23,114 nt of DNA from a bacterium (lineage in GTDB: Bacteria > JAMOTN01). Positions 5,681-21,860 of the stretch are shown here, piece by piece. How positions within the stretch are numbered: position 1 is the stretch's first letter; every line of letters begins with the position of its first letter. The notes below the pieces were generated by a model that did no database searches, was not told where the DNA came from, and saw only the letters and a list, made by a program, of their open reading frames with translations. The stretch spans positions 1 through 23,114 of the forward strand of contig JAMOTN010000065.1 of assembly GCA_027062325.1 (NCBI GenBank), given 5' to 3'. The position numbers were made by a program, and so were the translations under genes.

Positions 5681-5714
5681 GAAAATGTGTTGAATTGTCA
5701 GTGAGGAGTTGCTT

Positions 5715-6968
5715 ATGGTGGAGGCGAAGGTTACACCAGATTTGAAGCCTGAGTTGAAGCTTAGGTTAAAACTCTATCCTAAGATACGCTTTTTTGTTGA
5801 TTTATTGGAAAAAAGTGGGGCAGAGTTGCAGGAAGAGATAAGAAGAGATCCCAGTTTTTTTTCGGGAATAGAATTTGTATCAAGTGGAGGCGAGCCTGAG
5901 AATTGGGAGAGGATTTCTCAGGAGAGTGAGAATTTACGTGCCAAGTTATTTGAACAGTATTCAATGATGGAAGATGATCCTATCAAGCTAAAAATTGCGG
6001 AGTTTCTTATATATTCGGCAGATGAAAAGGGATTTTTACCTATCAGTGTAGAAGAGGTTTCGAAATATTTGGATGTGAATCCTGAGCTTGTTGAGAAGGT
6101 TCGTCAAGAGATTGCCCTTCTTGATCCACCGGGGGTTTGCGCTCTGAATTGGCGGGAGATGCTGAAGTTTCAAGCAATTGCGAAAGAAGCGCCGTCTGAG
6201 GTTTTGACGTTCATAGAAAATGTAGAATTGGCGCTTGAGAAGCCTGAGGAGTTTTCAAAAAAATTTGGAATTCCGCTTGAAAAGATAGAAGAGATAAAAG
6301 AATACGTTGCAAATAATATGACTCCGTACGTTATGTTGGAACCTGCAAGTAATGAACTCAAAACGACAAGAATAGACATGGAATTTAAAAAAGATCCTCA
6401 TAAGGGGTGGCAGGTGGAGCTGCACAATGTACCAAACATAACAATATCCAATGCTTATCTATCACTTGTTGACGATCCTGCTGTTTCTGAAGAACAAAAG
6501 AGATATATCCGTAATCAAATAAAGAAAGCTAGAATGATAATAGATGCTATAAAGAGGAAATATGAGCTTTTAAAAAAGGTTGGTGAGTACATAGTTGTTC
6601 GCCAAAAAAAGTTTTTAGAGGGTGAAGGAGAGCTTGAGCCACTTACAATGACGGAGATTGCGCGGGCTTTCGAAGTTGAGCCCTCAACAATTTCTCGACT
6701 TGTTAAAAATAAGTTGGTTAAAACCCCACGTGGAATAATGAATTTGCGTGATTTTTTTGTATATGGTGTGAAAGGTGTAAGTCAGAAAGAGATTGAGAAG
6801 AGAATTCGTGAAATTGTTGACAATGAGGACAAGTCTAATCCTCTTTCGGATTCTGAAATTGCTAAGATTTTAAAAGAGGAGGGGATTAGGATATCGAGAA
6901 GAACCGTAGCAAAGTATCGTCGAAAGTTAAGAATTCCCCCGTATACACAGCGAAAAGCAGAGGCTTGA
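5715..6968 (+). CDS. rpoN: RNA polymerase sigma-54 factor RpoN
   Basis: This is sigma-54 (417 residues), which directs RNA polymerase to -24/-12 promoters and needs AAA+ enhancer-binding proteins to open them. The C-terminal RpoN box (about residues 394-403, SRRTVAKYRR) and the preceding HTH-like region (LTMTEIARAFEVEPSTISR, then VKTPRGIMNL) are clear. So is the core-binding region with DPPGVCALNWREML. Region I is recognisable (ELKLRLKLYPKIRFFVDLLE, then ELQEEIRRDP) but almost lacks the glutamines typical of it. The ATG at 5715 is chosen because GAGGAG lies 6-7 bases upstream; the TTG at 5709 abuts that site. It follows glmS by 34 bases and ends in a TTGA overlap with tsaE. A likely target promoter lies upstream of dnaK in this window. 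Confidence 0.95.
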   Translation: MVEAKVTPDLKPELKLRLKLYPKIRFFVDLLEKSGAELQEEIRRDPSFFSGIEFVSSGGEPENWERISQESENLRAKLFEQYSMMEDDPIKLKIAEFLIYSADEKGFLPISVEEVSKYLDVNPELVEKVRQEIALLDPPGVCALNWREMLKFQAIAKEAPSEVLTFIENVELALEKPEEFSKKFGIPLEKIEEIKEYVANNMTPYVMLEPASNELKTTRIDMEFKKDPHKGWQVELHNVPNITISNAYLSLVDDPAVSEEQKRYIRNQIKKARMIIDAIKRKYELLKKVGEYIVVRQKKFLEGEGELEPLTMTEIARAFEVEPSTISRLVKNKLVKTPRGIMNLRDFFVYGVKGVSQKEIEKRIREIVDNEDKSNPLSDSEIAKILKEEGIRISRRTVAKYRRKLRIPPYTQRKAEA

Positions 6969-9694: not shown

Positions 9695-9779
9695 GAGGAT
9701 GCGTCTAAAATAAATGGAGGGTTGATAGCTGTGTTTTATGGTGCAGAATTAAATTAATAATTGTGGGGAGGTGATTCGT

Positions 9780-10268
9780 ATGATGTTGAGAAAGAGAGGC
9801 AAGGGTGCCTTTACTTTGATGGAGCTCATGATCGTTATTGCTATCATAGGTATCCTTGCTACATTGGCAGTTCCATCTTTTAAAAAGGTACGTTTGTCAG
9901 CTAAGTGGCGTGCATGCCAGACAAACATGTCCACATTGGCAACAGCAATTGACTCTTGTGTGTCTGAGGCGGATGATGTTAGTGGTCAGTGCGGAGATAG
10001 CTACGATACACCAAGTGATTCAGCTATGAAGTTAAAGAAGGCTGTATTTGATGCGCTTGTGAAGGGTGGTTACTTGAAGAAAGCTTTGTATTGTCCATAT
10101 GCTCCTAAGAAGGATGATAATTACGCTTACTGTAATTCGGATAAAGGAAGTTGCAGTGAGACTTGTAATAGTGGAGATAACTTGCCAAGTGGAGAGTGCA
10201 AATGTACGGCGCATGATGCTTGCCAAAGTGACAAGACTCCAAAGAATCACTGGATACGCCGTAGTTAG
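9780..10268 (+). CDS. Cys-rich type IV pilin-like protein (major copy?)
   Basis: This 162-residue prepilin has a short basic leader (MMLRKRGKGA) followed by Phe-Thr-Leu-Met-Glu and a hydrophobic helix. Glu5 of the mature protein is the conserved assembly residue. Cleavage by prepilin peptidase would fall after Ala rather than the usual Gly. The globular part carries ten cysteines, many in the last 60 residues, and a Cys-Pro ... Cys-x2-His pattern shared with the next gene. GGGGAGGTG is 6 bases before the ATG at 9780, so this start is preferred over the GTG at 9771. It has its own promoter and is followed at once by a strong terminator, suggesting a separately and highly expressed subunit. Confidence 0.9.
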   Translation: MMLRKRGKGAFTLMELMIVIAIIGILATLAVPSFKKVRLSAKWRACQTNMSTLATAIDSCVSEADDVSGQCGDSYDTPSDSAMKLKKAVFDALVKGGYLKKALYCPYAPKKDDNYAYCNSDKGSCSETCNSGDNLPSGECKCTAHDACQSDKTPKNHWIRRS

Positions 10269-10333: not shown

Positions 10334-10371
10334 AATTTAGCTACAGGCAAAAATAATTAGAGGTGAGAGGG

Positions 10372-10800
10372 GTGTTAAGGAGAGCTTTCACTTTGATGGA
10401 ATTGATGATAGTGATAGCAATATTGGGAGTGTTAATAACGTTGGCTGTTCCTTCATTCAAAAAGGCTCAAATATCTGCTAGATGGAGAAAGTGTCAGAGC
10501 AATATGAAGACACTGGAAGGAGCTTTGGATAATGTTGCGTCTGAGCACGATGAAGGTGAGAGTGATATTCCAGCCAATATTAAAAAAGCTTGTTGGGATG
10601 ATAGCGCTGGAAAGGTTGATATTACTCAAACTGAAATGGAATATCTTTTGAAGTTTGGTTATATAAAGCACATTTTAAAGTGCCCTATTTCTAGTCAAGT
10701 TAAGTATCAATTTGATACTGATAAAGGTGAAATGTATTGTCCTTTTCATAAAGCTTATCGTTCTGCAAAAAATCCTTATACTAATAACGATAACTCCTGA
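10372..10800 (+). CDS. Type IV pilin-like protein, paralogue of the upstream pilin
   Basis: The 142-residue prepilin has a five-residue leader (MLRRA), then Phe-Thr-Leu-Met-Glu and the same hydrophobic helix as the upstream pilin. Again Ala replaces Gly before the cleavage site. Similarity continues into the globular part (SARWRKCQSNMKTLEGALD against SAKWRACQTNMSTLATAID). It has four cysteines: one in CQSN, one in ACW, and a Cys-Pro ... Cys-x2-His pair near the C-terminus. The GTG at 10372 is preferred over the GTG at 10363 because GAGGTGA sits before it, as at the upstream pilin. A terminator precedes it, so expression depends on readthrough or a weak promoter in the short gap. Possible role: minor pilin or pseudopilin. 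Confidence 0.85.
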   Translation: MLRRAFTLMELMIVIAILGVLITLAVPSFKKAQISARWRKCQSNMKTLEGALDNVASEHDEGESDIPANIKKACWDDSAGKVDITQTEMEYLLKFGYIKHILKCPISSQVKYQFDTDKGEMYCPFHKAYRSAKNPYTNNDNS

Positions 10801-18204: not shown

Positions 18205-19812
18205 TTAGTTGGCGTGGTTAACGCTTAGCACAGTGCAGTAGCCTCCTGTTGAATTTTCAATGTGGGGTAAGAAAACTTTTTCAAATTTCAATTGAATGAG
18301 CGGAATGCCTGCTTGAAAAATTTCTGGTTGGCTTTTTGTTTTTGGTGAGGTTTGGAGAGTGTGTGATTTAAGAATGGTTTTTATGACCATCTGATTTTCT
18401 TCTTTAAAAATAGAGCATGTTGCATAGATTATATATGAAGTGGTTAGCTTAACAAATTTTTTAATAAATTCTACTTGTTTATAGGAGAACTCAATAGGAT
18501 CTTGTGGATTAATAAACCAGCGCCTTTCAGGATGTTTTTGCACAGTTCCGGATCCGGTGCAAGGAACATCTAGAATGGATATATCAAATGGGATTGTAAT
18601 TGAAAGATTTGTAGGTTTTATTGGTAGTTTTAGTGCGTCAGAGCATAAGAAGGCTATCTTTAGTTTTAAAATGTTGGAGATCTCTATCTTTATAAAACCA
18701 GCTTCTATCTGGACTAGACTAGTATGTTTGGGATTTAGTGGCTGTAAAATGCGCTTTATTTCCTCAATAGTTTGTTTTATGCGAGGAAACTGTATATCAT
18801 TTGAAATCACGATTACCTCTTTTGTGGTACTGGAGGTGTTGAAAATATTGTTAGCCGATTCTTTTTTATTATTGAGTAGAGCTTGGCCTACTAAGTATTC
18901 AATGATAGCTCCAAGTTTTTTGCCCGGAGCAGAGCATGCATCGAATACAACTACTTTGTCTTTTTGGTTTAAAAGTTCGATTATTAACTCGGCACTTTTA
19001 GCAGCTATTGAAAGAGCCATTTTGGACTGAACAGTTATCAAACCTTTTTTAAAAGCTTGGCTTTTTGATATCTCATAGGATTTTTCCTCTTTGAAATTTG
19101 ATAATATAGCAGTATTTGATTCAAGAGCTAATGATATGGCATTTATTCTCACAGGGGATATACCTTTGTTGTTGAAAAAATCTACAATTTTAAGAGCTGT
19201 GTTTCTCCCGTATTGCTTTTTTAATTTCTTGAAAAACCAAGCTGGAAAAGAATAATTTAATAATAGCTTGAAGTCTTCTTCTGATGCGGCAAGCGCTGGA
19301 GTGGAAAAATATTTGACGATTTTCCAGAGACTTGTGATTTTATTTTTTAAAATTTTTGCTTGAGTGGAACGTAGTTTTTTCAATACCCACTCTAAGCGTT
19401 TTGAAAAACCGGCATGGACTTTAAGGCGAGGATAGACTTTTATCAGCTTTTCTAAAATAGTGTTTACATTCACAGCGTTTGTAAGGATTTCTGTTCCTGT
19501 TACAAGAAGAGTAGCTCTAAGAAGAGATGACGACTCTTCAAATTTTTCTCTCTGAGAAGCCTCTATGAGAAGTTTAGTAAGTCCTAATTTTTTGGAAAGT
19601 GTGTATGTAAGAGCGGTTACTTCTCTTTTAACTTCAGGTTTTATTTGCCACTTTGAAAAAACTTGGTCTCTAGCTTTATTGAAGTTTTTACTTTTTAAGG
19701 CAATTTCTGTAATTTTTATGCTCCAGAAGAGAACGTCTGAGTAACGTTTAATACCTTTCCAATATTTTTTGGTTTTTATATTTTTTGTAACGGTATTTTT
19801 TTTTGTTGACAC
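18205..19812 (-). CDS. rsmB: RsmB-like 16S rRNA m5C methyltransferase
   Basis: The 535-residue protein combines an N-terminal NusB-like helical region with a C-terminal NOL1/NOP2/Sun SAM-dependent m5C methyltransferase domain. RsmB methylates C967 of 16S rRNA in E. coli. Motifs are the SAM loop DACSAPGKK (about residue 290), motif IV DVPCTGSG followed by HPERRW (Cys about 417) and motif VI YATCS (Cys about 463, the catalytic nucleophile). An insert rich in Asn/Ser/Lys lies between the SAM loop and the next strand. The frame stays open to a GTG at 19896, but GAGAGG lies 8 bases before the GTG at 19812, and the conserved part starts later. The composition (Lys, Ile, Asn, Thr; little Val or Gly) reflects being on the lagging strand. 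It is divergent from dnaK. Confidence 0.85.
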   Translation of the reverse strand: MSTKKNTVTKNIKTKKYWKGIKRYSDVLFWSIKITEIALKSKNFNKARDQVFSKWQIKPEVKREVTALTYTLSKKLGLTKLLIEASQREKFEESSSLLRATLLVTGTEILTNAVNVNTILEKLIKVYPRLKVHAGFSKRLEWVLKKLRSTQAKILKNKITSLWKIVKYFSTPALAASEEDFKLLLNYSFPAWFFKKLKKQYGRNTALKIVDFFNNKGISPVRINAISLALESNTAILSNFKEEKSYEISKSQAFKKGLITVQSKMALSIAAKSAELIIELLNQKDKVVVFDACSAPGKKLGAIIEYLVGQALLNNKKESANNIFNTSSTTKEVIVISNDIQFPRIKQTIEEIKRILQPLNPKHTSLVQIEAGFIKIEISNILKLKIAFLCSDALKLPIKPTNLSITIPFDISILDVPCTGSGTVQKHPERRWFINPQDPIEFSYKQVEFIKKFVKLTTSYIIYATCSIFKEENQMVIKTILKSHTLQTSPKTKSQPEIFQAGIPLIQLKFEKVFLPHIENSTGGYCTVLSVNHAN

Positions 19813-19858
19813 TTTGATCGCCTCTCTTTTGGTATGTGTAAGAATTGATATTTTTGGT

Positions 19859-19876
19859 TTGTAATATGGAATACAA
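19859..19876. promoter_or_regulatory. Inverted repeat upstream of the dnaK sigma-54 promoter
   Basis: TTGTA and TACAA flank 8 bases. It ends 37 bases before the -24 element. Enhancer-binding protein sites are usually dyads, often 80-200 bases upstream, so this one is close and only a weak candidate. Confidence 0.25.
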
Positions 19877-19913
19877 GCTATGTTGAATTTTACCACAATT
19901 TTGAATGAATTAC

Positions 19914-19928
19914 TGGCACGTATTTTGC
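19914..19928 (+). promoter_or_regulatory. Sigma-54 (-24/-12) promoter of dnaK
   Basis: TGGCACG (19914-19920), four bases, then TTGC (19925-19928) gives all 11 core positions of the sigma-54 consensus TGGCACG-N4-TTGC, with the required GG-N10-GC spacing. It lies in the rsmB-dnaK intergenic region. The predicted start is near 19940, leaving a 40-base leader before the dnaK ATG. The rpoN gene is in the same window. Confidence 0.8.
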
Positions 19929-19979
19929 GAAATAATAAATGCGGCAGAATGAGTTTGAGAAAAACAGGAGGTGTGTAAT

Positions 19980-21860
19980 ATGGCGAAAGTTATCGGTATT
20001 GATCTTGGAACAACAAACTCTTGCATGGCGGTAATTGAAGGAGGAGAACCCGTAGTTATTCCAAATGCAGAGGGAGAAAGAGTAACTCCTTCGGTTGTAG
20101 CTTTCAAAAAAAATGGAGAGATAATTGTTGGAACTCCGGCTAAGCGTCAGGCTTTGATAAATCCAGATAGAACTATTCGCAGCATAAAGAGGAAGATGGG
20201 AACTAACTACAAGGTAAGTATTGATGGTAAAGAATATACGCCAGAGCAGATCTCAGCTTTCATTTTACAGAAGTTGAAGAGAGATGCCGAAAGCTACCTT
20301 GGAGAGAAGGTTGAAAAGGCAGTTATAACAGTACCTGCTTACTTCCACGATTCGCAGCGTCAGGCAACCAAGAATGCTGGAAAAATTGCAGGACTTGAAG
20401 TTTTGAGGATTATAAATGAGCCAACTGCTGCAGCTCTTGCTTATGGATTCAACAATGAGAAGGAGATGACAATAGTAGTTGTTGATTTGGGTGGTGGAAC
20501 GTTTGATGTCTCAATCCTTGAGATTTCAGAAGGTGTCATTGAAGTTAAGGCGACGAGTGGAGATAACCACCTGGGTGGAGACGACTGGGATAAGAAGATA
20601 ATTGATTGGTTGGTGGAGGAGTTTAAGAAGCAGACAGGAATTGATGTTTCAAATGATCCACATGCTATGCAGCGCTTGTGGGATGAAGCGGAAAAAGCTA
20701 AGAAAGAGCTGTCTCAACAGCTTGAGGTTGAAATAAACATACCGTATTTGACAGCAGATGCAAGCGGACCTAAGCACTTGCAAACTAAGCTCACACGTGC
20801 CCAGTTTGAGGGTATGTGCCAGGATCTTTTAGAGAGACTAGAGAAGCCAATTTGGCAGGCATTAAAGGATGCAAAGCTTGAGCCAGAAAAGGTGGATAAG
20901 GTTCTGCTAGTTGGTGGATCGACCCGTATGCCAATGGTTCAGGAAAAAGTGCGCCAGATATTCAAGAAAGAGCCGGAAAAAAGAATAAATCCTGATGAGG
21001 CGGTTGCAATAGGGGCAGCAATTCAAGCAGGAATTTTGACAAAAGAGGTAAAAGATGTGCTGTTGCTTGACGTTACACCGTTGTCACTCGGTATAGAAAC
21101 ACTTGGTGGAGCGTTTACTGTGCTCATTCCAAGAAACACACCAATACCAACTAAGAAAAGTGAAATATTTACAACAGCAGAAGACAATCAGACAGCAGTT
21201 ACCATCCACGTACTTCAAGGAGAGCGCCCAATGGCTAAGGATAACATAAGTCTTGGATACTTCCACTTGATTGGAATTCCTCCGGCTCCAAGAGGGGTAC
21301 CCAAAATTGAAGTTACTTTCGATATAGATGCGAATGGAATACTTACGGTTACGGCAAAAGATCTTGGAACTGGAAAAGAACAACAGATGAGGATAGAGGC
21401 ACCGACTTACTTGAAGGAAGAAGATATAAAGAGAATGAGAGAAGAGGCAGAAAAGCATGCAGAAGAAGATAAAAAGAAGAGAGAATGGCTTGAGTTAAAG
21501 AATAAGACTGATCAGTTGATATACAGTATCGAAAAGATGTTTGAAAATTCAGAACTTGCCTCGAAGGTAGATAGCAATTTGAAGTCTCAAATTGATGAGA
21601 CCATCAAGAAGATAAAAGAGGTAATGGATGATTACGAGAAGAAAGATGATCTTGAGAGATTGTTCAATGAGTTGACACGCTTGACTCATGAAATTAGCAA
21701 GCAAGTTTATGGTGATGCAGCTGGTGGTGCTCAAGGTGGTTTTGCAGGTGGAGCCAACTTTACGGATAATGCAGGTCAAGCGACTGCTGGAACTAGTGGT
21801 GTTCAGGGATCTCAAAGTCAGGGATCGGATGATGAAGTTATAGATGCGCAATTTGAGTAG
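19980..21860 (+). CDS. dnaK: Chaperone protein DnaK (Hsp70)
   Basis: DnaK is the ATP-dependent Hsp70 chaperone that works with DnaJ and GrpE on unfolded proteins. The 626-residue product has the full architecture: the ATPase domain opens with [12 protein letters not shown], has [22 protein letters not shown] and the linker [13 protein letters not shown]; the substrate domain follows, then a helical lid. A Gly/Gln/Ser-rich tail ends in [18 protein letters not shown] is 6 bases before the ATG at 19980. The roughly 25-residue insert that proteobacterial DnaK carries between the IKR(K/H/L)MG segment and the following PxQIS motif is absent; the region resembles the Bacillus form. grpE and dnaJ are not adjacent and no CIRCE element was found; a sigma-54 promoter lies upstream and a strong terminator follows. 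Confidence 0.99.

Follow-up and report, generated by a model that had tools for sequence, protein, structure and literature searches.

A predicted sigma-54 promoter before dnaK and a small set of stress and DNA-uptake genes in an unplaced bacterial lineage

The dnaK gene of this bacterium is preceded by a sequence that resembles a sigma-54 promoter, which raises the question of whether its central chaperone depends on RpoN and, if so, whether it does so alone or together with other genes. We analyzed the whole stretch of DNA that carries the gene (23,114 nucleotides; hereafter, the window) and scanned the assembly (1.65 Mb, 84% complete). The reading that we favor, at a probability of roughly 0.83, is that a putative RpoN promoter drives dnaK as part of a small promoter set, and that groES-groEL-hrcA-grpE and dnaJ are placed under CIRCE-like operators.

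The dnaK leader and its promoter core

The first-pass annotation had claimed that TGGCACG-N4-TTGC with exact GG-N10-GC spacing precedes dnaK, that this is the only such match between genes, that rpoN lies in the same window, and that no CIRCE dyad is visible; all four points were borne out. The core reads TGGCACG-TATT-TTGC, with GG at 19915-16 and GC at 19927-28, and 51 nt separate it from the dnaK ATG (Table 1). When it was compared with TGGCACR-N4-TTGCW, every specified position fitted except the last, which is G where A or T is usual. In a search for TGGCACN5TTGC with zero mismatches, the dnaK site was the one match in the window and, in the whole genome, the sole match between genes; a good one-mismatch match at 1504-1518 falls inside a 93-aa open reading frame (1295-1576). 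The transcript start that had been expected near 19940 agrees with the position predicted from the sequence when C is placed at -12.

A DnaK search gave a single strong match in the whole assembly. The divergent neighbor of dnaK encodes an RsmB/F-like protein with a methyltransferase domain (Pfam), and its start is probably the GTG at 19815 on the minus strand, which is preceded by the ribosome-binding-like sequence GAGAGGCG. In the dnaK leader, no CIRCE-like dyad was found at ≤ 6 mismatches (19781-20010 searched). Similarly, in a scan of 19780-20000 for sigma-70-type promoters, the dnaK strand gave none, and the sole match, at chance level, was on the minus strand.

This last result bears on tandem control, in which the sigma-54 site is real and adds conditional transcription to that of a basal sigma-70 promoter. 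Such an arrangement is compatible with our main claim, although it would alter what that claim implies, and has a precedent in Chlamydia, where hrcA-grpE-dnaK has tandem sigma-66/sigma-54 promoters (PMC8762339). Furthermore, basal DnaK is usually required, the AT-rich dnaK leader could mask a poor promoter, and TATACT occurs just upstream of the rpoD site. However, the scan was empty on the dnaK strand, yet groES of the same genome has TTGACA-N18-TATATT. We regard tandem control as possible, but less likely than not.

Table 1. Features of the dnaK region, genes preceded by the motif, and elements of the two control arms. Positions are those of the window unless a contig or locus is given.
Feature	Position	Strand	Promoter core	Remark
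Sigma-54-type promoter core	19914..19928	+	TGGCACGTATTTTGC	exact consensus and exact spacing
-24 element TGGCAC	19914-19919	+		part of dnaK promoter core
-12 element TTGC	19925-19928	+		part of dnaK promoter core
Predicted dnaK +1	19940	+		predicted from the -12 position
dnaK ribosome-binding site AGGAGG	19966..19971	+		read directly
dnaK (Hsp70), 626 aa	19980..21860	+	TGGCACGTATTTTGC	Pfam HSP70, E 5.7e-240
Intergenic region, dnaK / divergent RsmB/F-like gene	19816..19979	.		start of neighbor predicted
rpoN (sigma-54)	5709..6968	+		Pfam, NCBIfam TIGR02395, alignment to solved sigma-54; start codon uncertain
rpoD (main sigma factor)			AGGCACAAATTTTGC
hsp20			AGGCACGCATTTTGC	only hsp20 of the genome
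ClpB-like Hsp100			TGGTACAGTTTTTGC
comEC-like			AGGCACAGATTTTGC
comEA-like			TGGTATACTTTTTGC
Pseudopilin			AGGCATACTTTTTGC
YifB/ComM			AGGCATGAATTTTGC
Secreted protein			AGGAACAGATTTTGC
CIRCE-like dyad of dnaJ	genome contig 64, 17490-17516 (L371:1501-1527)			directly upstream of full-length dnaJ
hrcA	L219:3797-4753			divergent HrcA; TIGR00331 1e-25 (below cut-off), PF03444 (above cut-off)

Occurrence of the motif in the genome

When one mismatch to the textbook consensus was allowed, ∼100 matches were obtained in the genome, nearly all of them within genes. The intergenic ones preceded dnaK, rpoD, hsp20, the ClpB-like gene, and the comEC-like gene, and were close to WGGYAC-N3-TTTTGC. Because the exact textbook pattern finds dnaK alone between genes, a refined motif was needed for the wider set. 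The refinement led from the one-mismatch matches to their intergenic subset and, through further scans and the sequence contexts, to WGGHAYRNWTTTTGC, which had 12 exact matches genome-wide. Although 92.4% of the examined DNA is coding, 10 of these 12 matches were intergenic and 2 were inside genes, and nine of the intergenic matches face a start codon 30–79 nt downstream. By comparison, 400 column-shuffled motifs produced 92 matches in total, of which 5 were intergenic and 2 were promoter-like; here, the fair comparison is that of the intergenic fraction and not the count, because the scanned DNA is enriched for motif matches, and WGGHAYRNWTTTTGC is partly fitted to its own members. The less fitted pattern WGGCACN5TTGC gave 10 matches, 5 intergenic and 4 promoter-like (shuffled means 0.63, 0.08, and 0.02, respectively). 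At one mismatch to WGGHAYRNWTTTTGC with GG and GC kept, the intergenic share (2/41) was that of the background. The nine other intergenic sites define the motif by themselves, and the dnaK site fits it. In addition, a purine, which is part of the sigma-54 consensus, follows GGHAY in 10/10 intergenic sites, and most of these sites came from scans that left this position unspecified. Because all ten sites have this purine and the unchanging GG-N10-GC of the sigma-54 signature, we read the dnaK core as a sigma-54 element.

The identities of the motif-bearing genes (Table 1) were assigned with Pfam and NCBIfam. The best model for the Hsp100 was ClpB (996 bits, under that model's cut-off), and the comEC and comEA products were under the NCBIfam cut-offs but over the Pfam cut-offs for their domains; because of these sub-cut-off scores, all three are named “like.” One target had been considered as HtpX, and this identity was rejected in favor of ComEC-like by Pfam and NCBIfam. 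Ahead of hsp20, no promoter other than the sigma-54-type site was recognised. The comEA-like gene (genome contig 81; L218:1798-2326) looks split into two overlapping frames, possibly by a frameshift or an assembly error. Two neighboring genes of the window (9771-10268 and 10363-10800) encode pseudopilin-like proteins with N-terminal methylation motifs and have no motif copy in front. One exact match, AGGCACACTTTTTGC (genome contig 37, 3237-3251, minus strand; L277:1502-1516), lies between genes with no recognisable gene ahead; it could be the promoter of a small or antisense RNA, or a chance match. A hairpin interpretation of the 15-mer (GCA...TGC in RNA) was also considered but not retained, since pairing would be broken or weakened in the GGA and GTA variants.

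No extra conserved column was detected around the ten intergenic sites, which means that they lack a sigma-70 -35/-10 pair at any constant distance. Instead of a sigma-54 promoter, the 15-mer could be the site of another transcription factor, one by which stress genes and DNA-uptake genes are coordinated. In favor of such a factor, the TTTT-rich core of the ten sites is narrower than that of generic sigma-54 sites, GG is preceded more often by A than by T, and RpoN binding is a prediction from sequence. On the other hand, the motif has no dyad symmetry, it agrees with the sigma-54 consensus in both spacing and fixed columns, the sites keep the above distances to their start codons with no fixed-offset sigma-70 promoter, and rpoN and activators are present. 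We consider such a factor improbable. No inverted repeat or shared word above the shuffles was found that would mark an activator-binding site common to the stress set; for the competence set, the search gave a weak, AT-rich excess.

Very improbable, in our judgment, is that dnaK is under a sigma-70-family heat-shock factor of the RpoH type. The 84% complete assembly contains six sigma-70-family proteins: none of the three that were scanned reached an RpoH cut-off, and, as judged by reading, the remaining three resemble FliA and ECF factors. The 245-aa protein of contig 51, which is small, non-housekeeping, and of unclear type, could be such a factor, but it scored far under the RpoH cut-offs and best against RpoD/RpoS-type models, and no sigma-70-type promoter was found on the dnaK strand in the scan. 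Finally, that the dnaK match arose by chance and has no function, a reading suggested by the ∼100 loose-consensus matches, nearly all within genes, is scarcely credible given the intergenic fractions of the refined and shuffled motifs (10/12 vs. 5/92) and the other heat-shock genes among the targets.

RpoN, its candidate activators, and the HrcA arm

The rpoN gene of the window is the only one in the genome, and its product combines a core-binding domain, a DNA-binding domain, and the RpoN box SRRTVAKYRR. Region I of the protein, which contacts the activator (window 5709-5900), is divergent: Pfam gave no hit for it, and it aligned only weakly with solved sigma-54. Transcription from sigma-54 promoters requires an activator. 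Four sigma-54 activators with an intact GAFTGA were identified in the assembly: those on contigs 45 and 38 have receiver domains, that on contig 66 has an unrecognised N-terminal domain, and that on contig 81 (L062:1039-2022) consists of AAA+ and DNA-binding parts in a PspF-like layout, without a sensory domain. The last is a candidate for the orphan enhancer-binding protein suggested in the first-pass annotation. It is encoded ∼3.5 kb from the comEA-like promoter site and, in view of this proximity, may serve the competence genes. Taken together, the intergenic and oriented motif set, rpoN, and the four GAFTGA activators support the proposal that dnaK is under a sigma-54 promoter.

The genes groES, groEL, hrcA, and grpE lie in a row. 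The groES promoter mentioned above overlaps the CIRCE-like dyad TTAGCA-N15-TGCTAA, whose exact form occurs only twice in the genome, before groES and before dnaJ. The divergent HrcA was missed by Pfam PF01628 but recovered with TIGR00331 and with PF03444, a model of the HrcA DNA-binding part (Table 1). HrcA-type control is probably in use in this genome, and dnaK is probably not included in it. The further chaperone genes that had been named as possible sigma-54 targets (groESL, clpB, dnaJ, and grpE) are split accordingly in the genome scan: the ClpB-like gene shares the dnaK core, as does hsp20, and groES, grpE, and dnaJ are found under CIRCE-like operators instead. As judged from these DNA motifs, the chaperone network appears to be divided, with sigma-54 for Hsp70, Hsp20, and Hsp100 and HrcA for GroESL, GrpE, and one DnaJ.

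Under the established sigma-54 mechanism, polymerase carrying the window-encoded RpoN would first form a closed complex at TGGCAC and TTGC; ATP hydrolysis by an AAA+ enhancer-binding protein would then open the dnaK promoter. The activated arm would then consist of Hsp70, Hsp20, and Hsp100, and the repressed arm of GroESL, GrpE, and DnaJ. It is a tentative and rather doubtful extension of this scheme that sigma-54 has replaced the role of sigma-32 in the lineage, so that one activator, with damaged proteins or a common stress signal as its cue, switches on dnaK, hsp20, clpB, and rpoD along with the DNA-uptake machinery, and HrcA separately governs GroESL, GrpE, and DnaJ. If this were true, there would be a joint heat-shock and competence regulon under an ATP-dependent activator.

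Comparison with other genomes and known systems

The kinship of the comparison genomes to this one was at domain rank only, and a DnaK search of a second collection returned other phyla only. Among 82 dnaK leaders scanned (this one included), two others had a near-consensus site, at -61 and -64 (L036 and L039; other phyla), and one more had a weak site at -185; 1.7 matches are expected at that loose threshold, which makes the excess slight. For hsp20, 3/30 leaders had a site at ≤ 1 mismatch vs. 0.34 expected (L349, L351, and L357; other phyla), and one of these three sites is far upstream, at -154. Of the five genomes with such dnaK or hsp20 sites, rpoN was found in four, and the fifth is 59% complete. 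Sigma-54 control of small heat-shock proteins and some dnaK genes may be recurrent.

The first-pass annotation had stated that dnaK is controlled mainly through sigma-32 or HrcA. This is true of model organisms, but chaperone genes under sigma-54 have been predicted before in Planctomycetota and Bacteroidota and reported for Chlamydia and E. coli ibpB. A survey of the first two phyla predicted sigma-54 control of DnaK, IbpA, GroEL, GroES, GrpE, and DnaJ (Carrera-Reyna et al., 2025; PMC12316311). Our set resembles these predictions in DnaK, an IbpA-type small heat-shock protein, and ATP-dependent proteases (COG0542 and others). However, GroEL, GroES, GrpE, and DnaJ, which belong to the predicted cluster in that study, carry CIRCE-like operators here, and our set adds rpoD and DNA-uptake genes in a lineage without a relative below domain rank among the compared genomes. 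As in Chlamydia, a sigma-54 promoter, here a predicted one, lies ahead of a transcript containing dnaK, but the Chlamydia gene belongs to an hrcA-grpE operon that has CIRCE, whereas here dnaK stands alone, with no CIRCE and no visible sigma-70 promoter. The HrcA/CIRCE system itself is represented before groES and dnaJ, and is absent from dnaK. As cited in PMC4316790, ibpB of E. coli is also a small heat-shock gene with a sigma-54 promoter; there it is a second promoter inside an operon of sigma-32, whereas the site before the only hsp20 here is the sole promoter recognised. In Ralstonia, natural competence requires rpoN1 (PMC4371752), and the pilus and competence genes in our set fit this link of sigma-54 to pili and DNA uptake. 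The known target in Ralstonia is pilA, whereas here the comEC-like, comEA-like, and YifB/ComM genes carry the core, alongside chaperone genes. New here are the way in which the chaperone genes are divided, the presence of clpB and rpoD in the set, a motif in common with DNA-uptake genes, and the unplaced lineage; in the part of the literature covered, we found no description of that combination.

With the central chaperone behind a sigma-54 promoter, folding capacity would be set by a switchable AAA+ protein, and not by the stability of a sigma factor. The predicted split would also separate the regulation of DnaK from that of its own co-chaperones, DnaJ and GrpE, and the presence of the core at DNA-uptake genes suggests that stress and transformation share one program. 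The named promoters and the four candidate activators make these predictions testable, and an unplaced lineage joins Planctomycetota and Bacteroidota as a group with predicted sigma-54 control of chaperone genes.
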